Assembly (NCBI RefSeq): GCF_947623445.1
Contig: NC_135241.1
Span: 2,358,501-2,422,500 of the forward strand
Direction of reading: 5' to 3'
DNA: 64,000 bases
DNA from: Clavelina lepadiformis
Lineage: Eukaryota; Chordata; Ascidiacea; Aplousobranchia; Clavelinidae
Part shown: piece by piece, positions 18,017 to 40,442 of the stretch
How the letters are laid out: every line of letters begins with the position of its first letter
Position numbering within the stretch: the first letter of the stretch is position 1
The notes under the pieces: model-generated
Told to the model about the DNA's origin: nothing
The model's database searches: none
The model's input: the letters and a program-made list of their open reading frames with translations, nothing else
Position numbers and translations under genes: made by a program

Positions 18017-19503
18017 TTTTGTAAATACCAAAACCTTGTATTTTTACTCATTCAATTAATAAAAAAGCTAAAAGCATTAGGTGTTGGACAATAAAATTAC
18101 TTGCAATTTCTCTACTTCGCAGAAATTGCTATCGGGTATTTCCCTTTTAGAAAAAAAAAATATCTTAAAGATTTCATTTTACTTTGGGAGGTATGAATTG
18201 ACTTTCCAATAATAAAATGTTGTAATCGACACAACGAGTGCAGAAACAGAAATGTTTATTAATTAATTAGGCGAATTAACTGACTCGTTTCGAATTAAGT
18301 TTTTGTCTTTTTAGAGATTTATGCATAAGATTAGGATCCATCTGAAGAATTTTCGGAATCGTAGCCTACTTTAAGTTTTTATTGCAAAGCTCTCTCTCTT
18401 GCTTGGTTGCACTGTATTAAACCGAGATTAAACAAATGCAAAGTCCCTGCGCAATAATTCTTATGCAAAACAAACTTAATTTATTATGTTTAAAAGCAGT
18501 TTAAAGCAGGATTTCTATTGGTATAACTACAAATTAATGCTGACAAAAGTGCGCTAATAAGCCCGAACATTTGACGATTTAAAAAACATCACTGGTAATG
18601 AATTAAACTGCAACTTTCCAACATAACTATATTTTCAGTTTCAAGGAAACAACGGTGGGCGAAAAATAAATATGTCAAGATTAGTTCAATGATTCGAAAG
18701 AAGCCTAACTAATTGCTTGGTTGACTCAATTAAGACACAACCTAAACCCATCTGACCAAACAGCAGAGTTAGCAGAGTTAAAATTTACTAAACAATTTTA
18801 ATAAAAACGTTTTACGGACGAATTTGAAGTAAGATTACTTCTTTCTTGGGTGCATAGGATTACAAAGCGCATCAAGTGTGCAATAAAATAACTCGAAGCA
18901 TTTGATTTTGAACAGGAATTAAGTCGGAAATGAAATCAACATTAAAGATGTAGGCCTAATGCGTCTTTAAACACTTGGATGAGTCTAACAAGTAGACTCA
19001 AGTCTCAACGAGAGCAATCAGATGGTTTAAACTGAGACATGGGAACACACGCGCCCTGGAACTGGCGCCGATCTGGGATTTTAACGTGGATTTTTTCAGT
19101 AATATTAGCAACGTGTCGAGCAATGACAGCTTTGTCTTTAGTTTGTAATGGAAAAGTGGTATATGTTCCCTTAGCCTGTAAGGTTTACCCACTTACACTA
19201 CAAAGTCTGTTTCCTTGTGTATATCTTAACAGTGAACCTTGATAGACTTCAGCAATAATGACACAGGAATGACTACTGCATAATCTGATTATATATTTGA
19301 AGCTTCTTTGAACGAATACATCAAGATAGAACATTGTGACAGCAACAGCATAAAGACATGTTGCGGCGTTGAACGTAGAAACCAAAAAGGGACTGAATGA
19401 ATCAAAATGCACGCACAGGGCAACAATCGATTACGTCACGCAGTGTTATGCTTCACTGATTCGATAGACGAGAATTCTATGTCGTACACAATTTTATATT
19501 ACA
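18017..19503. other. Gene-free interval upstream of ERMARD and downstream of the GTPase-kinase gene
   Basis: AT-rich; no coding similarity, repeats or RNA genes recognised. It should contain the ERMARD promoter (just above 18016) and the 3' UTR of the gene ending at 19504. No convincing TATA box or polyadenylation signal could be assigned. Confidence 0.5.
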
Positions 19504-22500
19504 TTAATTGATATATTTATCACAAGTTGATAAGGAGCTTAGAAAATTGTCGCGTACTTCCATCATGGATGGTCTCATCTGCGGATCTTGGTTCCAGCAC
19601 TTAACCATCTCATCCTTGAGAAGATTAATGATCTCGACGTCTGCTTCATATTTCAAACTCAGCTTGAGCGCTTCGACTTCTTCCAGGCTGGGTCGGTTGC
19701 CCTGCTCAGCTACATAACGTACCACTTCCAAGTACGTCATCCTTTCCCGAAACGGCAGATTCCTGGTGAGAACTTCGTGGCTGATCATTGACACGCTGTA
19801 AACGTCCATTGCTCTGCTGCTCCGGGCTTCACAGTTCAGCAATCGCTCAGGTGAGGCAAATATGTAAGTAAACTCCTTTCTTTGCTCTTCCGATGATGGC
19901 CCAGAATTGGAACTCGTGGCAAAGTTAGCCCCACCGAAATCACTGACCTTACATCTTAGGTCAGTTGTCAACAAAACGTTCTCCGACTTGATGTCGCCAT
20001 GCGTTATGCGTTGGTCGTTGCAAAAGCCATAATGTAGATAGGTGATGCCACACGCCACGTCATTGCAGATTCGAAGTCTAATCACGGTTGGAATATGCTG
20101 GATCTTGTACTCGTCTCTATTCTTGCTGCTGAGAAAGGTATGTAAATCACCGGCGGGCATATACTCCATTACAATGGCTGCTGCACCTGGCCAGGAGGTA
20201 AAACCTACCAACCGAACTACGTTTTCGTGGCTCGATAACTTTGTATTTCTTGTTTCGTTCATCAGTCTGAATTAAAATGTTACACAATGTAAGAAGATAA
20301 AAGGGGAGTTAAGTCTTATCACGTTATTACAATACATTTGATGCACTTAACGATTTTAAAAAGAGACAATACGCAATTCACGATCTTCACAACTACAAAT
20401 GTCAAGGCACTATATCTACTATAGGTCACCTTTCATGGGTTTGCTTTATGATCTCTTTCGAGCCAGTGACTGGAAAATATTTGATTGCTACCGACCCATG
20501 AGGGTTCGTGAATCCAAGACGGACGCATCCGAATCCGCCTCTTCCAAGAAAACCTCTCATTCCCAGAACTCCAAAAATCTGATCACTGGAGATATACGTT
20601 GCAATCTGGAAATAAATACTGGGTTATATTTGTTGTGGCTTGTTTTGTTTTTAAAAAAGGTCCAAATACGTTTTTTGTAGACCGTTTAAATCTGCAACCT
20701 AGGGCAGTATTGGATGCGAGATTAAATTTTGTTCAGTTTTTTCCTGATTAGTTTGCATTAGCAAGAATTTATTACTGAATTACAGGTTTACGAAGAAAGT
20801 TGTAACCAAAGTAACGCAAGGAAGGATGGAGCCCTAGTTTTAAATCATGGTGAGATGATATATGTTATAAAATATAATATTATGCCCACGAGGAAAAATT
20901 TAATAAAAATATTTTTACCGTCATCTTGTTTATTTCTTCTTTTTTCAATTGCAATATTTCTGTCTTCAACATTTTTATTTCTTGATCTCTTTCGGTCAAT
21001 TCCTACAAAGATTACCGGAAATTAAACAGGTGCTTTCGTTACTCACATGACATATGAATTTTGTCGCCTAGACTTGATAGGCTAGAACAGTGCTCTTCAA
21101 CCGGTGTGCACGTTGCACCCTATGGTGTACTAAAATTATGCATGGAGTGCACCAGTACGAAAAGGTATACAAGGGTGCATCACAAACTTGTCACACTAAA
21201 CAGATACTTTTTACAAAAACTTTCTGTGAGCAAAAATGAACCATTTATATTTGACTTTCAGGATATTAGAAAAAAGATGTACACTCTAAAAAAATCTTGA
21301 GTCAGTGACTCCACTCACGCGAAAGAGAGAACGGATTCTGATTCTTTAAAGAGTCGATTTTTTTCCACCTTCTCTCGTTTTTTTTTTTGCTTATGCAACA
21401 TTCTATTTGAGTGGTGTCTTCACGGTTGGCTTGCGGCGTATTACGCAAGGGAAATTTTTACTTAGTGTTAGAATGTGATAGTTAATAATGTGCAACAACA
21501 AAACAGTCATTAAATAGTCTCTTTGCTATTTGCTCAAGTTTGTTTGAATGCTGTTTTATGACATGCAGTAGTACTCGCAAGCAGCCTGCAGCCATAATCG
21601 AACTCTCACCGACAATGTGAAAAACTTCGGCAGCTCCGCTCGGTTTGATTGACATAATGATGTGCATAATGATTTTTCATATCGCTTTTTACCTCAGTTT
21701 ACCTTTTAAGTAAATAAGGTGCATGAGTTCGTCACAACAACTTAAGGTTCACCAAACCAAAAAAGAGCTTGAAGAGCTCTGGGCTGGAGCTTGCAGCCTA
21801 CAAAATATGCGCCTAATCTTTTTTTTTGTTTTGTTTTTGCAGTTCGGAAATTTTTGCAAAAACTTCCAGGTCTTTCCTAACACCGCTGACCTCGGGTAGA
21901 CGTTGTTCAGTCTGAATCGAAAAAAAAAATGTTTGTCATCTCACTTATGGGACTTGATGGAAGTCTTTTTTTGTTAAAATTATACCTTACCTGCAGATTT
22001 TGGATTTTGCCTTTGATGAGGGTAAATCCCCCATCAATTTTGCTTTCCAGTGAAGCTTTGAAGCGGCTCTTTAGGTGTTTTATTTGATCGGGAAAAAGAT
22101 TTTCAAAATTTTCCATTGCCTTCGCTTTAAATGCCTTGTGAGCTGAATGAAGTAACATCATGTTGACGGAACAATTGCGTCTTTCCTCCTAAAAGAGGCA
22201 ATAAAATTGATAAAAACATGAACACGCTCTTATTGAAGAATTTATGATATTAAAGTTTTAGATATTAAATATTTGTGTAAACGTAACGTTTTATCTATGC
22301 CCTACAAGCTATATACGCAGGCTAGCTACCATCTGCTGTTGATATTCGGTGAATAATCTTGCCCAAAGTTTTTCAGCTGTAAGGCAAGCGAGTTCCTGTC
22401 AGTTGAAATACATATCTTGTTAATATCATTGCTGCATCCCACAAGCGGAGATTTTACAATTATTTTCTTCCAACGTAGACCACTCAAGTCGTAGGATAAC

Positions 22501-25011
22501 TGATATGTAGCCGACATATCCGTATGTTGTTTAATTATACAGCGTGGTGACTCGTTCATTCAACATCTCCTTTGACACAACTCAACAACTTTTCCAAAGT
22601 TCGGATATCAAAAATAATTTAATGGGCTTTTTCAGTTAGCAAACGAGTTCTGCTGTATGATGTTTATCGTTAAGACACTGCTAAGGCTAATATAGGCCTA
22701 CAGTGTTCGATGGGTTTACCGTCATTGTAGTGATCGGATTTAGAAGTCTTCTGTCTTGGAGAAGCTGGTACAATTTGTCGGTAATTTTTACTAGATCTTG
22801 GCCGGTCATGGAGTGGTTCCAATGCCGCTTTGATTCGGTGCATTCCGTCAAAAGGTGATGAAAGAAATTTCCCAGGTGGACTCGAAACGTGTCGTCCAGC
22901 TCTGCAAAACCAAACTAAAGCACTTACGGTACAACTAAAAAATACAAATAAGCTTTCTTATTTTTAGTGCGAGCGGTCAATACATTACTGAAAGATACTA
23001 AAAGTCTCGATTTGGTCGGTTATCGTTTGAAATGAGCTTTGTTAAACAGTAGTGATTTAAAATTGGTAACTGGAACGTACCTTCAGCAATAATTTCATTG
23101 TTCACCGTATTTTGACACTGATCTCCCACTAGACCGGAGAAGGGGAGCAACATGCACTTGACCTTGTCGAAAGCGTTTTTTACGCGATCCTTCACCGCTC
23201 GATCGCCGAATGCGTTTCTATCGTCATCGAAGAAGATTTCGTTCTCCATATAGCGAAAACCCCCTTCTATGCCGCACTCGTACTTCTCGTTGGCGGACCA
23301 ATAACGAATCAGGAAAAACAACGCCTACATAGACGTCATCATTAAGTAATCAAAGTGTCGGTTTTGATACCCGGGACCAAAGAAAAAGTGAACTTCGACC
23401 AACCTGAAAGTAAGTCTTGTCGCCTGGATCTTTGTATTCTCTATCGTATCCAGATAAAATCTTAAAGGCAACGAATAATTTTAAATCGGCCAACTTTTTA
23501 ACTAAGCATCTTCCTCAAGTCAAAGAAAATATCTAACTTACGTCCAATATTTCAAGGTCGTTTTCACCAATCTCTTCCACAACGTTGTTGATTAACACCG
23601 AACTTATGATGCTGCTGTAAACGAAGATTTCGTGATCTTTCTGAGATCGATTGTCAGTAAACGATCCTTCGGTCTCCATGAGTAACAGAGCAATCTATAA
23701 AAGTGATATTGCTTGTAAATTTTACGCATGAGTATAACTAAAACCTATACTTATAAATAGTACACCACCTGCAGCGTATGTGTGAAGATAATGCAAAGCC
23801 AAATACCTGCTGACCATCAGATTTGCGCAGAAGATATGGCTTGCTCCATATCCATATTCCAGGCTTGATAACTCTTCGTCCACGTCTCCACTTGAGAGTA
23901 AGCGAAAGGTCAATTTCTGGCTGCCAATTTTTATCCTTCAAATTCAAAAGTTACTTTTGCAGCCTGTATTTTTATTTGCAGTAGTTTTGCTGCAAAAAAC
24001 ACGTTGTTAAGTCAGAGTTAAATATTTCCCACCATGTCCGACTCCAGGAAGGCGATTAAAAAGTTTAGCAGCACAGACTTTCCGGTGTTTGGTTCTCCCG
24101 CCACTGAGATTACAGCAACCGGGTTATCTTTGACCGAATGATGTTCTGCAATCTTCCTCAGAGCATCTTTGTTCATCTCAAATCCACCGTTGTCGCGTGA
24201 TCCAAGAAGATGCACAAATTTTGCTGAATCGTCATGACCTATTAAGCGTAAACACGATACGTTGTTCAGCCCATTCCAGCAGCTTACATCGCTCAATTAG
24301 CGACGAGGAAACGTAGATTGGTATGTTTCCAGTCGGTATAGTTTTTTCATTTTGTTTTAATCACAACTTAATGAAACGACGTTTAAGTGACTATGTTAAC
24401 GTAAAGAGGACAAGCAACTCCTTGCTAAAGATCCAATAGGCTTTAGGTTAAGAAACTTCGTGAGCTAAAAACTGATTTAAGCTATTTGGGTTTAGTTGAA
24501 GTTGGATTTATTTTAGAAGAAATATTTAGGTTAGGGTACTATGCTTTTGAGTTATAACGTTCAACATAGATAAATACGAATAAGAGTTTGAACTGTTGAA
24601 CTGTTTGCTGAATTTTAAACCTGCGGTTTTACCGGCTGTGGGATTTGCAAACAACTCCCGCTCACGTTATGTTGGTTATGGTCGCTTTTGTTACTGTGTT
24701 TTACACCAGGCAAAACAGGCTATAATAAAAGATACCCTGCTAGAAAAGACGTTTAGTGCGATCATCAACGTGGCAACATCAAAATCACTTCACTTAGAAG
24801 ACGATCATTCATTTCTGACGGCAGACATCGATTTCATATAGGTCCATTCTTTTTACCGGCTTCAAAGTCCAAATAACAACCAAGGATTAAGTTCTTTGCC
24901 AAGCATTACTCAAATAGAAACGTACAAAATAAGAAGTAAATTTGCACCTGATCTTGTCGCAAAATGTACTGGACCGACGACAGTTTGATCATGACTGAGT
25001 TGCCTCTGCAT
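19504..25011 (-). CDS. Atlastin/GBP-like dynamin-family GTPase fused to an IRAK/RIPK-like protein kinase, 751 aa
   Basis: Eleven exons: 24948-25011, 24033-24238, 23807-23935, 23542-23694, 23404-23460, 23081-23324, 22720-22901, 21991-22188, 20919-21002, 20430-20605 and 19504-20266 (minus strand). Lengths and phases sum to exactly 752 codons without a stop. Residues 22-345 follow the atlastin GTPase: P-loop GEPNTGKS at 69-76, WRRGRRVIKPGIWIWS (91-133 exon), G3 METEG (E140), and FFLIRYWS at the G4 position (R210-Y211 where atlastin has RD). Residues 346-411 match the start of the atlastin middle helices; no membrane hairpin follows. Exon 9 (412-439) is a charged coiled coil. Residues 458-751 are a TKL-type kinase: GRGGFGCV (460-467), VAIK Lys481, HGDIKSEN (587-594), DFG 607-609, ASPE. 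The HGD catalytic loop is typical of IRAKs. Inferred role: nucleotide- or oligomerisation-controlled signalling, perhaps in innate immunity. Two separate adjacent genes are the alternative, but no promoter, start or stop separates the modules. Confidence 0.85.
21088..21300 (+). mobile_element. Possible hAT-type element end (remnant) in an intron of the GTPase-kinase gene
   Basis: The sequence starting CAGTGCTCTTCAACCGG resembles the CAGTGNTTCTCAACC-type terminus of many hAT transposons. No matching inverted end or clear 8-bp duplication was found, so this would be a one-ended remnant of uncertain length. Weak support. Confidence 0.3.
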
Positions 25012-26079: not shown

Positions 26080-29000
26080 TTATATTTCATGAGCCAAGGC
26101 CTCTCTGTGCATCTTTTGCTTCGTGTCTCGTATCTGCTGAGAGACTTTTTTATGGAGTTTTTCAAGCTTCTCGGTGGCAAAATTCCTGGGGTCATCTAGC
26201 TCACCGGACATCAATCTTCTACAAAATACATGGGCAATAAACTATTCTATGTGTGGTTAAAAAACTTTTTATGCATAGTTATCATAAACATACACTAATA
26301 TAATTATTGTAGAACTAATAATACCTGCAAAATACAACAATGTCTTGCTAATGTTTATAAACGAGAATGTCAATAAATGCTTTGCCAACTTCGAGTAATT
26401 CACAGTAATTTCAGGCCCCCCCACAACCAGCGAACAAGCATTCATTGTTACAAGCCTCAACACCTCGCAATCCAACAACGTAACTTTCGACGTTTCAAAC
26501 TGATACCATGAACTTACTCATTGAGTTGTTCTTGAGCATGAGTTAGATCCAAGTTCTCCATCATCTCGTACGTCCTCTTGACAAGGGACAGATGCTTTGT
26601 TCTGCTCACTTTCAGTGCGAAGGTGAATCGCACCCCGGTGAATTGCGTGCTTGGAGGATGAGCTGAGTGTTCTATGTTGTCTGTTGCGAAGAAAATTCAC
26701 TTAATTGAAGAAAATTTAGCAAAGTTTTTCAGATCAAAAGTTAATGTTTTTTTGCGAAATATATATTTCACCTCACTAAGCATCTTCAGTTTCTCATTCA
26801 AATAGAATCAATAATTCATATTATAATTAATTATAATAAATTAAAATTTCTACAGTTGAAAAGTTAAGTGCCATACACAAACATGAAAAACGGTTAGTTT
26901 GTAACAGCAAAAATTTTAAATTAAAGTTATTTTGTACCATGTTCAATTAACTTTTCCACGGCACCCAACCCCAAACTTAAACAGCAGTATTAAATTCTAA
27001 AAAGTTTGCCAAAGATCGGTTATTGTTATTTCAACAAAATAACACCCGAGGCTTACTTCTGAAGATGGCAATACGTCCAAATTTTGGTGTGACAGTTGCA
27101 ATTGCCTCATACACTTCTCCGCCTTGTCCTATAAACTCATGTACTCCATCCGCTTCCTTCAACACCACAAATGTCGTCTCTCCGTAATCTGAAGGCACCA
27201 AACCCTCATTGAGATAGAACACCATGGTCAGCTCAGTCTGTTGAAATAGAATTAGTCAAACAGTTAAACTTAGTTAGTTAGTTTTAAACTATTACTTAAA
27301 ACGGCGTTAACTTTTGACTAATATGATATACATTGTTATGTCACTTTACAAATTGAAGTAAAAGTTACAATTACCGATATTAATAAATATGACTCTTTAG
27401 TTCTTAATTATAAGACAAAAACTCCTTTTAACCAATATATACGAGACAGACAAAGAAACTGACTTGGTGAGGTTCAGAGTCGGGGTGAATGCGGGTGTGG
27501 TCGGCCGATCGAACAAAATTGAGTGCGACATCGTATGGATACCATTCTGTTTCATTTGAGACGAATTCACACAGAGCTAGGAACCTTGGCCACATGTCGG
27601 TCTTCATGAAGCTCTCCACCTTTGAAACATAGTAACGGCTGACACAGTGCATACGGTTTGTAACATGATGGTAGTCCCACACAAAAGCCAAACCCAGCTT
27701 ACATCATAGGCTGAAATCCACTGGACGTTATCGTTGTCTTCCAGTTGATCCGTGTCATACGAGTTTCCCTGAGGAAGGGACTTTAAGAGGTGACTCTTCC
27801 ACTGCCTAACTTCATCAGTCGTGAAGAGGTCATCAAATATGTGAAGGGTTCTGGATAATTTCGAGCAAACGGAAGTGTCAATGAATAATTATTCAGAGCA
27901 GTTTCAAAAATTCTTGCTAATTTCAATCATTTATCGATGAGGTGCTGAGTCTAAGCACGACTTTCTTGCTCGTCATACACTTCGGTTACACACAATGAAC
28001 AAAATTAGCAGATTTACGTTTCCATGAATATCAAGAACTATTATTGTATTTTCACAAATCCACTCTTTTCAATTTCATTCATCCATGATAAATCACAGTA
28101 ACAGAATCAAAAATAAAAACTACATCAACAAATAAAGAAAAACAACATTTAAGCAAAACTAACTGCATATACAACGCTGGTGCAAGACAGTTTCCTGACC
28201 TGTCCTCAGAGCCATCATTGAAACTCCGAACAAGATGCTGATGGAAGTCGATCTTTCGATCTGCGTCGAAATTAGTGAAATGGAAATCAGCAAATTCTTC
28301 ATCACTTTGTGGAGTGAAGGGGGCTGGGAAAGGAGGGTTTTCTACAATTGTTAAAAAGAATGTTAGTTTTTGGATAAAAATTGTTGCAAGATTTGTTAAA
28401 CAAGTGTTTCTCAAGTTGGCTCCGCGAAGTCTTTGAAGTCCGTAAGAAACGTCCATGGGTTCTACAATTGCTTTCTTATCTTGTAAATTACTTAACCCAT
28501 TAACATTTATAACTATTAATAGCAATATACAGGTTTATAAGGATGGACTCTTGTGCAAGAAGAGATCAAAATTAAATCTGACAGAACAGAATAGACTGGG
28601 AAGAAACCAATTTGATTTCACACAAATAAAATAATTAATTTTACCATCATTGTTTGGATCCGTGGTAATCCAGAGGTTTAAATACTTCAGGCGATGAAAG
28701 TAATTGACGCATGGAGCACGGAAAAGCACTGTGTGACAAGATGGCCACAAGATGGCACGATACGCATGTGGATGAACGCTTTGTGTTATTTCCAACCTCG
28801 ATGAGTTGGGTTCATTTTGTCGAGGCACTTTTTGATAAAACGATGCCTAAAAATTACAACGCAATGGACCAAAAAGTGTAATATGGACACCATGGTACAA
28901 CCTGGCTACTGTAAATTACCATAACAAGGCTTTGAAATTTCTCATCCAACACTGACGGTAACAATAAGCCTTATTTTACAGCTTAAATTCATTCGTAAAT

Positions 29001-32339: not shown

Positions 32340-32478
32340 TTCACTAGAATTCTTCTCGTTACGTGACCCTGCGTTTTTTCTCGCTCGACTAATCATACTT
32401 CACAACAATGATTTTCCATATCTCGAAAGTTTTCACAAATCATTTGTGTCAATCTAATGTAACGGTTTACAAAAACTG
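32340..32478 (+). repeat. Tail of a lost 7TM-locus duplication unit
   Basis: Around 32370-32470 the text CTCGCTCGACTAATCAT followed by ACAACAATG and a T-rich stretch recurs, diverged, at about 33800-33900 and at about 37130-37230. The latter two lie a similar distance downstream of the 3' ends of the 7TM fragment and the full 7TM gene. This copy lies immediately before the fragment, so it is best read as the 3' flank of an earlier unit whose gene has been lost. Confidence 0.55.
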
Positions 32479-32807
32479 CAACGAAAAACACGACGATCAC
32501 GAAGAGGAAAAAAGAATCCAAAATTAAATCGTCGAAAACGGTGAAGCGCATCATGCAACGCACCGTTGCTTTTTCATTGGTCACGGTTGCCACAGACATC
32601 ATACTGCTGTCGATTACAACGTTCGAAATCAGTAATGAACGTGTTAATTTATTACTGTACGATATCAACGCTTTTCTTAATGTCATCTTTGTCATTTGCT
32701 CATTTTTGTCATTCAAGCAAATGCTGTTTTCACCGCTGCTTAGCGAAGACAGTCTGAAGAGAGTGGAAAAGAAGTTTAAAAACAAGCAAACATCGGACGT
32801 TTTTTGA
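32479..32807 (+). pseudogene. 3' fragment of the neighbouring 7TM receptor gene (partial duplicate)
   Basis: Bases 32479-32775 align without gaps to 36180-36476, with only three differences (32606, 32609, 32636), each synonymous in the receptor frame. The fragment covers the end of intracellular loop 3, TM6, TM7 and the start of the C-tail, then diverges and ends at a different stop (32805-32807). It lacks TM1-TM5, so it cannot make a receptor on its own. The 3' flank keeps only diverged similarity to the flank of the full gene. An assembly artefact is unlikely because both flanks differ, but cannot be excluded. Confidence 0.85.
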
Positions 32808-35401
32808 TGAAGCTAAGAGTGCGTGTACACTGGTAGGATGACATGGTTGCGTTTGATTTGATAACGTTGAAACGGTTGGTTATGAAACATTCTGTAAATA
32901 ATTTGTGGCATTTGCAGAACCAATGTCATGTGGATTGTTGAGGGTTTTTGCGAGGTCACATAATAATTTGGCGATAGCTGCAGAAATTTATTATAAGTAA
33001 ACTGCTAACGAAAGGGATCCCAAAACTCCACCCATGTGTTCACTACTCCAAAGGCGAAATTTTTCACAAACTGAATCTTTATTCATTTTGTACAATTTTG
33101 TTTTTAATTTTGTAATTACAAAAAGCGTATCGCTTGCTGTAATTTGTAAGCTCCTGTTTTATATTGGTTTTAACTTAGCTTCAAATATATATTTGTATTT
33201 ATACTGGAAATTTGTCACTGAGGATATATTTAGATGAAAACAAGTAAAAGATGTAAGTTCTCATTATTCCTATCAGGTTGCGCTTTTTGCCTTTTTCTTT
33301 CCTTTTCAGTGCCTTATAACAATTGGTTTCTCAAGAATTTTCACTTCATTGTCTTGTGAATGCAATAAACATTAAGCCGAATACAAAAGTTATTTTCAAA
33401 TCTCAATTCCAATGAAAACATTTTTAGAATCTGATTATTACGTTTGTTACTTTTGTTTGCGTTTAATTGTTGACTAACGAAGGTAAATTAACGCGTCTTT
33501 GGGTTTGAGTTAATACACCGTTCATAAATGAGCTTCATTTAGATGGTCCCGTTTCGTAAAAATGTTAATAGAGTAGGCATTGATTTCGAAGACGGCTCAG
33601 CCCATTTGCACTCAGATTAGATGTCGAGGCAAACACGGAGCATGCAGCCACCGGGTCGTATTTTCTTCCGGAATGCGCATGTCGTGTCGTCCGCGTAGTA
33701 CTGGTATGCGGAAAGTGGACTTGAAGTTTTTAGTTTTAACTGTATGTGGGGTGCGTTTTACGCATGAAACAAGTTCACAAATTTCTTCTCATCAGATGAA
33801 ACCGCGTTTGCTTTTGTCGCTCGACTAATTATGCTGTACAAAAGCAATATTTTGAATTTTGAAACGTTTTGACAAACCAATTGCGCTTGTTTAAAGTTAC
33901 AAGGTCATCGAAACTACCAAGAATTTGGCGCCTGCTCTGCTTGCTCATTGTCTCAATTGAAGATCACTTGAGCGAAACTACCATCGCACGAAACCTGTAA
34001 TTCGTGCTTTCCCCAGAATGCACTCTCCGTAAAAACAATAGCGGTAGTCGGTCAAGAATGCATGCAAGATAATCAGGCTTACTGCGTAAGCACATGCAAT
34101 GTTCAACAAGTCCCTTGCAGAGGAACGCGTCATGCTAGCAGCTCTACACGAACTTGTGGTCGTTTTACATTTAGCTACGTCGTGCCAAGGTTGGTCAGAA
34201 TAAGTGGAATGGACATTTCATATCAACCTCGCACCAAACCTGCTTCTCAATAATGATTTAATTTTTAATCTGTAGGCGTCGACAGTTATGTTGTTGTATG
34301 GTATGTAGTTATACTTTCCTGAAAGTAGTATACCATAGTGGTAATGATAAATAGTAGCCTGGTTGCTGCTAAATAACTTTTTCATACGAAAGCAAAGTTG
34401 TACTCGCACGGCAGGTAGCGCGACGCCGTCTCGTTCATTGTTGTTTTTCGGGCTAAAAAAAAGTTGTCTTAAATTTCAGGCTAAGTGGTTATCTTTTAGA
34501 GTTAGACCCTTAGCCTGTAACGAGTGGTAAATAAGAGCTTTGTTGCGTTCGCAGAAGCATGTTGGGCAGCATAGAAAGAGACTATGCCTGTTCAATGCAA
34601 TGATTCTAAGTGCTTAGAATCATGCGTCGGCCTAATGGCAGGTTTTAACGGTAAGATTTGATTTGCTTTTCTAACCAGAATTGTGTGATTTAAATTTGGA
34701 ATCTGGTCTAGAAACGTATAGACTTATACGGAAAAATTTCTCTGACTACAAGGGATAAGTTCAATTTAAATGATGAAAGTTTGTGAAGAAGGCGTTTTTC
34801 GTTAATCTTAAAACCCTTGCCTTTACCTTCCGGACATATGCTGGGCACAATGGCGGATCCCGCGACTCTCCACATGCCTTGGAAGTTAGGGGTGGTTAAA
34901 GTAAAACAGGTGGCCGAAAACACGTTTAACGTCACGCTTAGCAAACTGATGCGATTTTGAAACAGAACAATGATAAGTCATGAAATATAAAAAAATAAAT
35001 AAAGTATAAACTGCTTTCAAAATTTTCATAAAACTTATCAAACAAGTACATTCTTTGATGAAGTCGTTATCATTAATGGTTATTTATGAAAGAAGCTGTT
35101 TAAGCTATTTGAAGGACAAATACACAAAAGGATAAAAAATCAGAATTAATGCAAAGGGCTAGCTTAGCATAAAATTATTTCCAAATTTTCGACCAGTCGG
35201 TATGGTTTCAAGGTTCATGTTGTGTCAACTGATAAGCTAATCTTTGAACTATACAAATTTTTGAGTTTCAACTGGACAAAATATTTTAAAATAGACTTGA
35301 TTATAAGCTTTTAACTGGCAACTTCATATTTATGCAGCTTGTCCCACGGTTTCATTGTAGCATTCAATACTGGATTGTCGTACTTAATTAAGTAGTAAGA
35401 A
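32808..35401. other. Interval between the 7TM fragment and the full 7TM gene
   Basis: The first about 1.2 kb (to about 34000) shows diverged similarity to 36520-37400, the 3' flank of the full receptor gene: for example GAGCTTCATTTAGATGG versus GGGCTTCATGAAGAG, and CTACCAAGAATTTGGC versus CTACCAGGAATTTGTG. The remainder (34000-35400) has nothing I can identify; the last few hundred bases should be the receptor promoter. Confidence 0.5.
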
Positions 35402-36517
35402 ATGCCAATTGAAATGAACAATACGAACTCGACTGACTCGAAACCGTACCTTAGATGGAAACATGCAGACTGGCTAATAGCTGAAGTGATCAACTCTCTG
35501 CTTATGCTCTCTACTCTGTGGATCATATTCTCCTTGATCCATTTCGGCATAAAACACAAAAAGTGGAGCAAAAACCAAACGGGAAACGTAGATAAACTGA
35601 CCGGAGGTATAGTGTACACATTGACAGTAGTGTGTGCAATTTTAGCACTTGTGAGATTCATCGTCGACCAATTTGCATTTAATATCGGAATTGGCATTGG
35701 TTTCGACAAAGAATGTGAGGTGTTGGCAGATGCTGCATTGGTGTTGTACTTTCTTGTCATTTCGGCGGTTTATGCTTTCCTTTGGCTACGGCAGCGTATA
35801 TTTTATGCGAACAACATGCTGTTTGTAAACGTTGGGATTTTCTTAAAAGTCTTGAGCGCCAGCAGTTACGCAATTTTGTTTTTGGCCGGTCTAGCGGGAT
35901 TACTGCTCACCACGATTCCTGTCAACCACCCATCATCACCTGAAGGTTGTGTTTATGTGGAAAGTGAAGAAATCGGACCTGTCGCTTGGATTATTTTTCT
36001 TATTGTCTTGGTTGCGGGTCAAATCACTTTAGTTGGACTTTTCATATATCCCCTCAAACGGGATTTCATTCAAAGCATTAGAGGATGTTGTCGATCTTTA
36101 TTTCATTCGGGAAATACCGACAAAACCAGATCATGCAGTGTTGCAACAAAACAGACTTCGAAAAATGAAGACGAAACTTCAACGAAAAACACGACGATCA
36201 CGAAGAGGAAAAAAGAATCCAAAATTAAATCGTCGAAAACGGTGAAGCGCATCATGCAACGCACCGTTGCTTTTTCATTGGTCACGGTTGCCACAGACAT
36301 CATACTACTATCGATTACAACGTTCGAAATCAGTAACGAACGTGTTAATTTATTACTGTACGATATCAACGCTTTTCTTAATGTCATCTTTGTCATTTGC
36401 TCATTTTTGTCATTCAAGCAAATGCTGTTTTCACCGCTGCTTAGCGAAGACAGTCTGAAGAGAGTGGAAAAGAAGTCTGAAAACACTCGTACATCCGACG
36501 TAGTTCGCAGCAGCTGA
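35402..36517 (+). CDS. Intronless seven-transmembrane receptor-like protein, 371 aa
   Basis: A single open frame with ATG 35402-35404 and stop 36515-36517; AATAAA lies at 36816-36821. The N-terminus is short, outside-like and carries N-glycosylation sequons (NNTNST). Seven hydrophobic segments are visible at roughly residues 24-48, 68-92, 104-128, 146-171, 192-217, 284-304 and 315-340. A Cys at the start of TM3 (CEVLADAAL) and a Cys in extracellular loop 2 (EGCVYVES) could form the usual GPCR disulfide. The end of TM3 reads LWLRQR where rhodopsin-like receptors have DRY, so coupling is uncertain. Intracellular loop 3 is long and basic (KRKKESKIKSSK). I do not recognise the ligand or subfamily; a lineage-specific chemoreceptor-like GPCR is the best guess. 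A nearly identical 3' fragment lies upstream. Confidence 0.75.
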   Translation: MPIEMNNTNSTDSKPYLRWKHADWLIAEVINSLLMLSTLWIIFSLIHFGIKHKKWSKNQTGNVDKLTGGIVYTLTVVCAILALVRFIVDQFAFNIGIGIGFDKECEVLADAALVLYFLVISAVYAFLWLRQRIFYANNMLFVNVGIFLKVLSASSYAILFLAGLAGLLLTTIPVNHPSSPEGCVYVESEEIGPVAWIIFLIVLVAGQITLVGLFIYPLKRDFIQSIRGCCRSLFHSGNTDKTRSCSVATKQTSKNEDETSTKNTTITKRKKESKIKSSKTVKRIMQRTVAFSLVTVATDIILLSITTFEISNERVNLLLYDINAFLNVIFVICSFLSFKQMLFSPLLSEDSLKRVEKKSENTRTSDVVRSS

Positions 36518-38822: not shown

Positions 38823-40442
38823 TCAAAATTGTGGACACAACATGGCATGAAATATATAATCAGCATTTTTAGTGGTGAAATGCAGTTTGGAAATATTTCT
38901 TAACTCATTTTCTGAGTTAAAGAGACGATAACCTAATTTGGGCATAACCTCTTTGCAAATTTCTTGAACTGCCTTCACCTTTTCAAAGGACAAACTTTCT
39001 CTCCAACGAGACAAAACTGCCATCGAATCCCGGTTGGTTCCTTGAGGATTTTTCAAAGAAAGATCATCTTTGTTTTCTGATGACGTAGCTTTACGTAACC
39101 ATGACTTCATGCTATCAGGAAAATTGATTCCAACAAAATCATAAATTTTCGCTGAAACTCCAATTGGATCCAAGGCAAAGTCTTCGTGACGTATTCTCAT
39201 GTATTTGTGACGTAATGTCGGATCCTTCATCAAAACGTCATTAGCAAACTGGACGTTGGGAATCAATCTCTCGCAAATGATGTTGCCGGCGTTTCTATAA
39301 AACAAATAGTTATAACTTAGAGTATGAAACTATATTCATACTTGGTCGTCACAAAACTGTTATTTATTGGTTAAAAAAGAAGTACAAATTTCAAAGTCAA
39401 ACAAAACCAATGCATGTTACGGATTTAAGATAGGCTAAGCTATGGAAGACAAGCCTGACATTCTGCAATTCATACAAGTATTTAAACTCAACATGAATTG
39501 ATTTTAACTTGCATTCCGGGCACGATTAATCTCGAATGACACAGAATCCGAAAAAGGTTGATGCTAGCCTTCTCTATAATGCAAAAATTCGTCTCCAAAG
39601 CTTACTTTGCAACATCAATTCCGCCCTTGCCTTCAGTTCTTGAATTAGTTGTAGCTCGCGGATCCCGCACCAAATGAATAACCTTGATATTGACCTTAGG
39701 GTCACGAAGGAGTGGAACGATCCATTCCAACTTGCAAACATAGATCGCCTTCATCGCAACTAACAAGCTCTTCTTGCAGTAACAGGAAAGTTCGGTTGCG
39801 TTTAACGGCTCCGGGCAGATCTGGACACGGTTCGCTACATGACACATTCCAGCATCACGTGATAGAAAATGACTGACTTTCTGCGTTTTGCTTGTGAAGC
39901 AAACATTATGGATTTTGCATCTGAAACATCAATAAATGTTATTTGTTGGACCTATGTTTTACTAGACTTCGATAGCATCTGTAACTCAAGTATACACCTA
40001 GTACAGTAAATATCGACTTCTTGAAAACCGTTTCGTTGAAAAATATTCACCTCGCGTGAATGTCGTTGCGATTTGTGACGTTATAAGCCTTTTTATAAAG
40101 CGCAGGAAGCGGGAAAAATTCGCATCGGGAAATATGACGTAATACTTGTATCCTGTCCTCGTAAAGTCTCTCACATGGTCGTTCATCGAAAGGAAAGACT
40201 GGTTCATACAAGTAAGTTACGCCAGTTCGTTGATTAAAGAGTTCTCCGAGTATACTTGAGCCTGAGCGCATTTGAGTGAACAAAATCACCACGTCAGGTC
40301 TTCGCTTGTAAGAAGTCGATACAATTTTCTGTCTACTTGCGTCATAAAAGTTTTGATTCCAGAAAATGGACAAAGTGATTAACTGAATGAAAAGGGCAAA
40401 GCTTGTGATGTAAAAATACTTTATATGCTTAGCCGCTGCCAT
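38823..40442 (-). CDS. Golgi carbohydrate 6-O-sulfotransferase (CHST1/CHST3-like), 392 aa
   Basis: Three exons, 40051-40442, 39606-39920 and 38823-39294, in phase (393 codons). This is a type II membrane protein with a short N-terminus, an anchor at residues 9-28 (YFYITSFALFIQLITLSIFW), a stem and a luminal catalytic domain. The 5'-phosphosulfate loop is TQMRSGSSILGELFNQ (RSGSS 59-63). The 3'-phosphate site is KVIHLVRDPRATTNSR (R216, S at the end). These define the PAPS-dependent Gal/GalNAc/GlcNAc 6-O-sulfotransferase family; length fits CHST1-like enzymes (about 410 aa). The predicted role is sulfation of galactose, GalNAc or GlcNAc in Golgi glycans such as keratan or chondroitin sulfate. 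A strong acceptor (TTTCCTCTTTGCAG) abuts the ATG directly, so the 5' UTR is either on an upstream exon or added by spliced-leader trans-splicing. The acceptor sugar cannot be decided from sequence alone. Confidence 0.88.

Follow-up and report, generated by a model that had tools for sequence, protein, structure and literature searches.

A Clavelina lepadiformis gene family joining an atlastin-like GTPase domain to a RIPK-like kinase, and a member interrupted by mobile elements

We analyzed a 64,000-nt stretch of the Clavelina lepadiformis genome (contig NC_135241.1, positions 2,358,501 to 2,422,500; hereafter the window), whose minus strand carries a gene model joining an atlastin-like GTPase domain to a RIPK-like kinase domain. 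The model comprises 12 exons with GT/AG borders, which read in one frame from the ATG at 25011 to the TAA at 19504 and encode 773 amino acids (Table 1). The original prediction, made from the sequence of this stretch, had described such a single-frame chain with 11 exons and 751 residues; the joined chain was recovered, but its exon count and length were corrected, a 22-aa exon (22395-22330) having been overlooked. This exon is present in the NCBI protein P0001 (atlastin-1-like isoform X1 of Clavelina lepadiformis, 465 aa, 100% identical to the model over residues 1–433), and has 22-aa counterparts at the paralogous loci C1:19.96M (hereafter C1) and C3:2.68M and a 19-aa counterpart at C3:0.52M. 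The 28-aa exon that links the two halves likewise has a homologous 84-nt phase 0/0 exon at C1, C3:0.52M and C3:0.54M. It had been read as a coiled coil, which we no longer treat as proven, as the heptad score of the exon taken alone was reached by 1403 of 5000 shuffles.

The Pfam scan at 0.01, a profile search proposed with the original prediction, matched the joined model to both expected families and listed only GBP, Pkinase and PK_Tyr_Ser-Thr. The GBP match (PF02263) was 6e-33 over residues 40–307, with 114.6 bits against a cut-off of 21.1. Among solved structures, the first 461 residues matched Atlastin-1 at 1.1e-39 over residues 30–419 and GBP5 at 2.5e-4. Because the Atlastin-1 score was far better, the "GBP-type" label given earlier to this half was replaced by atlastin-type. 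Only the start of the helical middle domain had been claimed; the domain is present and its extent was understated, the Atlastin-1 match reaching residue 419.

The P-loop GEPNTGKS lies at residues 69–76, as described before. Aligned with GAFRKGKS of Atlastin-1, it keeps GKS and has Asn at the Arg-finger position, and the other G motifs change from ETTG to IKPG, DTQG to ETEG, and RD to RY. Judged by the residues that define G-domain activity, described in part in PMC12012479, the window copy has substitutions at all four catalytic or base-binding positions (the Arg finger, the Thr of switch I, and the Asp of G3 and of G4); its G domain is therefore probably a pseudo-GTPase. In passages of PMC12012479, the Arg finger of RNF112 is reported to be indispensable for GTP turnover, and mammalian RNF112, which is without canonical G2/G3 residues, to have weak activity. 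No 19-residue hydropathy window exceeded 1.6 in the 773-aa model, P0001, P0002, P0004 or P0006, and the fused protein is therefore probably soluble rather than a machine for fusing membranes.

The kinase half matched Pkinase at 3.9e-37 (residues 480–758) and PK_Tyr_Ser-Thr at 2.7e-35. The last 312 residues matched the solved structures of RIPK2 (1.6e-24), RIPK1 (2.2e-20), RIPK3 (7.3e-19), Roco4 (7.1e-17) and IRAK4 (5.5e-15); of the earlier description "IRAK/RIPK-like", the RIPK part fits better and IRAK is more distant. The kinase residues are kept: GRGGFGCV from 482, Lys503, HGDIKSEN from 609, Asn616 and DFG at 629–631. These agree with the motifs from which a complete kinase had been predicted, except that the Lys had been numbered 481, because the 22-aa exon was missed, and that the C-terminal tail is cut by a long terminal repeat (LTR). 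The loop reads HGD, and the kinase is thus of the non-RD type, a type tied to innate immunity (PMC8463890). The same scan gave no match to CARD, death domain or ankyrin, RHIM not being sought separately, and none to Roc or COR, the GTPase being matched as GBP.

We searched 209 Mb of the genome, of which the published assembly spans 210.1 Mb according to a passage of PMC10884593. The window kinase found at least 130 matching stretches (127 of 268 candidates scored), and nine loci were examined, the window and eight others from this search. Four of the nine have a GBP-derived front (the window, C1, C3:0.52M at C3:528696-520661, and C3:2.68M at C3:2696250-2682899). Mapping exon by exon showed that, at the three loci beyond the window, the G domain is followed by the middle domain, 28-aa linker exons and the kinase. 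Each of P0002 (1117 aa), P0004 (1043 aa) and P0006 (953 aa) is a single annotated protein with both halves. All 1043 residues of P0004 were mapped in order on 18 exons at C3:2.68M, as were all 953 of P0006; P0002 was mapped on C1:19956007-19970537 from residue 122 to the end (996 of 1117 residues), its earlier part lying outside the DNA compared. The exon lengths of P0002 match those of the window, including the 22-aa exon, the 28-aa linker and a 59-aa kinase exon, and eight extra phase-0 linker exons follow its exon 9 before the final 28-aa linker, the only one of this series present in the window.

The kinase tree (21 rows, midpoint rooted, with a long lamprey RIPK2 row) placed the window, P0002–P0007 and P0076 in one clade with support of 98/96. 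This clade contains seven kinases with GBP-derived fronts, the window included, with the SH3-kinase P0076 nested inside; within the tree, the window and C1 grouped at 92/85, and the place of the window kinase among the fused kinases rests on the 98/96 clade and one at 96/89. A "SPRY" label on P0082 in this tree was unsupported by any search. Because three further loci share this order and their kinases group with that of the window in one clade, the fused architecture is real as a gene family at the level of sequence. The window copy shares its exon order, lengths and phases, and its kinase lies inside the clade of fused kinases. The earlier claim of GTPase, helix and kinase in one gene thus stands as a family trait (P0002, P0004 and P0006); for the window copy, the annotated protein is without the kinase.

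The members differ in their fronts. P0003 keeps all G motifs, P0004 all except the G3 Asp, where it has Tyr, and P0005 is without the P-loop region. The P-loop is lost in P0002 and P0006, neither of which has a Pfam GBP match, and the front of P0002 nevertheless matches Atlastin-1 at 3.8e-13. Members with better-kept motifs (P0003 and P0004) may be GTP-driven switches. We rejected P0005 as independent proof of the fusion, since its G domain is nearly that of P0008 and its kinase nearly that of P0003, so that it may be a merged model. At C3:0.54M (C3:544500-556000), P0076 has two SH3 domains in place of the GTPase (515 of 572 residues mapped), and at C8:0.81M (C8:805000-834970) the SPRY-like front of P0077, which matches SPRYD3 at 2e-16 and has no Pfam SPRY match, is fused to a kinase belonging to this family. 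No GTPase exon was found with the window model within the only ~10 kb upstream of the kinases at C5:1.76M, C8:1.53M and C4:22.29M. The simplest history would be a single fusion, later duplications and one or more replacements of the front. Two side observations concern these fronts: the linker and kinase of P0076 are nearly the same as in the C3:0.52M pseudo-GTPase fusion, an apparent front exchange, and the GBP profile found 101 genome stretches, clustered on C2, C3, C4, C6 and C9, a large atlastin/GBP-like expansion.

Known systems resemble parts of this architecture. Atlastins carry a membrane anchor behind the middle domain. The window model shares with atlastins (ATL1 and ATL3; ATL1 at 1.1e-39) and RNF112 a G domain followed by a helical middle domain, but it ends in a kinase, has no transmembrane-like stretch, and carries substitutions in key G motifs. 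Attachment of a signalling domain to an atlastin-like GTPase has a precedent in RNF112, where that domain is a RING (PMC12012479). RIPK1, RIPK2 and RIPK3 have the nearest solved kinase domains, but the window kinase is C-terminal, behind an atlastin-like front and without a Pfam CARD, death domain or ankyrin. RIPK kinases have a CARD, death domain, RHIM or ankyrin partner. Roco/LRRK proteins hold a GTPase and a tyrosine kinase-like kinase in one chain, the Roc-COR module preceding the kinase; Roco4 is among the window-kinase matches, whereas Roc is Ras-like and the window G domain belongs to the dynamin superfamily. Vertebrate GBPs, and fish GBPs with CARD-type tails, are dynamin-like immune GTPases able to carry a signalling tail, and differ in that the window front is far nearer atlastin and its tail is a kinase. 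The original prediction knew of no described family with this order, and in the open-licence PMC full texts searched we likewise found no published description of the fusion; in that literature the architecture is undescribed.

The reading we favour, with moderate confidence, is that the window holds a shortened member of a modular sensor-linker-RIPK family of Clavelina, either with alternative ends or decaying. In this family, phase-0 linker exons connect a RIPK-like kinase of the non-RD type to an atlastin-like front made up of a G domain and a helical middle domain. The front module would sense or pair, the helices would hold the chains side by side, and this closeness would let the kinases act on one another or recruit partners, as for RIPK kinases. 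RIPK2 is reported to act mainly as a scaffold in NOD2 signalling (PMC6120666); since RIPK kinases can be mainly scaffolds, the family kinase need not work by phosphorylation. An immune role is suggested by analogy only. In the window copy, the G domain would be a docking or pairing module that does not cycle GTP, the eight extra linker exons of C1 are missing, a GTPase-only product is modelled, and the tail of a fused product, if one is made, would be truncated. Two alternative ends would be used or the gene would be decaying.

Several results weigh against this reading. After exon 9, P0001 reads into an alternative exon that adds 32 residues before its stop codon, and it is without the kinase. 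A separate end before the kinase, which had earlier been regarded as speaking against a single joined gene, is thus found in part, in the annotated P0001 only. No annotated protein with the window kinase was returned at 425–1353 aa, a search whose words came from the first 500 model residues and covered just 39 kinase residues, or at 187–595 aa. Two mobile elements lie within the gene. One, which we take to be hAT-like from its end motifs, makes up most of the intron behind the alternative exon and has imperfect flanking repeats; 29 other genome stretches match it at 76–92%. The other, a solo LTR, interrupts the last kinase exon and supplies its stop and last six residues; it has at least 39 other near-full-length genome matches at 93–98% (40 of 887 candidates scored), with at least five pairs ~1.5 kb apart. 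The G-domain tree gave no resolved branching and cannot confirm the family history, and was dropped as a test of it; one of its rows, L001, was a meaningless frame read from the wrong strand. Between the window and C1, GTPase exons 3–9 are 33% identical with a ratio of nonsynonymous to synonymous differences (pN/pS) of 0.59, less constrained than the kinase, and synonymous divergence is near or past saturation, so that the selection test tells of the past and not of the time since the insertions. The predicted structure of P0002, made from a single sequence, is unusable overall (mean predicted local distance difference test score 37.2); its sole fairly confident stretch is one long helix at about residues 670–760.

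The constraint on the kinase is marked. The window and C1 kinases are 65% identical with pN/pS of 0.24 at saturated synonymous divergence, and pN/pS was 0.30 between the window and C3:0.52M and 0.25 between C1 and C3:0.52M; the linker exon is 46% identical between the window and C1, with pN/pS of 0.67 over 28 codons. The kinase was thus strongly constrained through most of its past, and the GTPase less so. Exons 10–12 keep an open frame, usable splice sites and intact catalytic residues, and past the LTR an open frame resembles the paralog kinase tails. The window copy is shortened and hit by mobile elements, and it may no longer make the joined protein. It is a poor standard-bearer of the architecture, for which P0003/P0004 and C1 are better.

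That the fusion is already over at the window locus, leaving a GTPase-only gene whose downstream linker and kinase exons, severed by the two elements, are no longer transcribed or are decaying, we judge rather unlikely. The end of P0001, the protein searches, the hAT-like copy that immediately follows the alternative exon and the LTR inside the last exon all fit it, as does the alternative exon acceptor, which is the best of those scored (14 of 17 pyrimidines); against it stand the intact state of exons 10–12 and a window kinase pN/pS as low as that between two paralogs. The original prediction instead had a working GTPase that assembles on membranes or pathogens and so gathers the kinases. 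Assembly of this kind suits members with intact motifs (P0003), and the window copy does keep the GKS of its P-loop while the related P0003 and P0004 retain more; with its four G residues replaced, its kinase tail cut by the LTR and P0001 lacking a kinase, such a role for the window protein is very unlikely. Still more improbable are two independent genes, with a separate promoter and start for the kinase somewhere from 21991 to 20605. P0001 does end upstream of the kinase, and kinases of the same family occur behind other fronts (SH3 in P0076, SPRY-like in P0077), but exon 10 starts at a phase-0 acceptor and corresponds to the final linker exon in the fused paralogs, the intron between exons 9 and 10 is mostly mobile element, and neither protein search (425–1353 and 187–595 aa) returned an annotated kinase-only protein. 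We retain the shortened family member as our reading of the locus.

More tentatively, tunicates, or at least Clavelina, may have built a modular cytoplasmic receptor-kinase family from a RIPK-like kinase, a phase-0 helical exon cassette and exchangeable fronts (atlastin-like GTPase, dead atlastin-like GTPase, double SH3 and SPRY-like). If so, the dead GTPases before live kinases would be docking modules or decoys, and the family would parallel, in a chordate, the immune kinases of plants that carry integrated sensors. Should the fused proteins be produced, a chordate would have a dynamin-superfamily GTPase wired straight to an immune-type kinase in a single chain, skipping adaptors, and live and dead GTPases in one genome would offer a clean test of GTP-driven assembly versus pairing alone as a RIPK-type switch. 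Front swapping via phase-0 exons would show the speed at which an innate-immune kinase can be refitted with new sensors.

Protein searches with the window model returned Clavelina proteins and environmental proteins. An alignment search for relatives gave 43 proteins, two of the family and both known from Clavelina; it missed even P0002–P0005 and is therefore uninformative on other tunicates. Among environmental proteins, P0078 has a front that scored 4.9 bits against a profile built from seven middle-domain units of Clavelina, not above its own shuffles. The front of P0079, which has a related kinase, scored 19.2 bits (expectation value 1.8e-5) against this profile, the best of 300 shuffles reaching 7.6 bits, and gave no Pfam GBP match and no meaningful PDB match (best 0.26); P0079 is a lead only to a relative outside Clavelina.

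Table 1 Features of the window copy and its mobile elements (window coordinates).
Feature	Position	Strand	Basis
Exon 1, start codon at 25011	24948..25011	-	N-terminus same as in P0001
Exon 2, P-loop GEPNTGKS	24033..24238	-	Exon model; P0001
Exon 3, switch I region, VIKPG vs ETTG of Atlastin-1	23807..23935	-	Alignment; C1 mapping
Exon 4, G3 ETEG vs DTQG of Atlastin-1	23542..23694	-	Alignment
Exon 5	23404..23460	-	Exon model; C1 mapping
Exon 6, G4 RY vs RD of Atlastin-1	23081..23324	-	Alignment
Exon 7, middle domain	22720..22901	-	Exon model; C1 mapping
Exon 8, 22 aa	22330..22395	-	In P0001; counterparts at paralog loci
Exon 9, middle domain	21991..22188	-	Exon model; paralog mapping
Alternative terminal exon of P0001, 32 aa and stop	21813..21911	-	NCBI protein P0001
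hAT-like mobile element copy, 694 bp, inverted ends, in intron between exons 9 and 10	21088..21781	-	Genome matches
Exon 10, 28-aa linker exon, phase 0/0	20919..21002	-	Paralog mapping
Exon 11, kinase N-lobe	20430..20605	-	Exon model; genome kinase search; C1 mapping
Exon 12, remaining kinase; stop and final six residues come from the LTR	19504..20266	-	Exon model; Pfam
Solo LTR, 381 bp, TG..CA ends, AACT at each flank	19144..19524	-	Genome matches
Remnant of conserved kinase tail past LTR, open frame	19005..19143	-	Likeness to paralog tails

Elsewhere in the window, a weak 2OG-Fe(II) oxygenase match (6.2e-4, under the Pfam cut-off) lies at 27031-27255 (-), and a sulfotransferase-like open frame (PF00685, 4.9e-06) at 38823-39329 (-). 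A 372-aa open frame with many hydrophobic stretches lies at 35399-36517 (+), its 3' part being nearly repeated at 32463-32807 (+).

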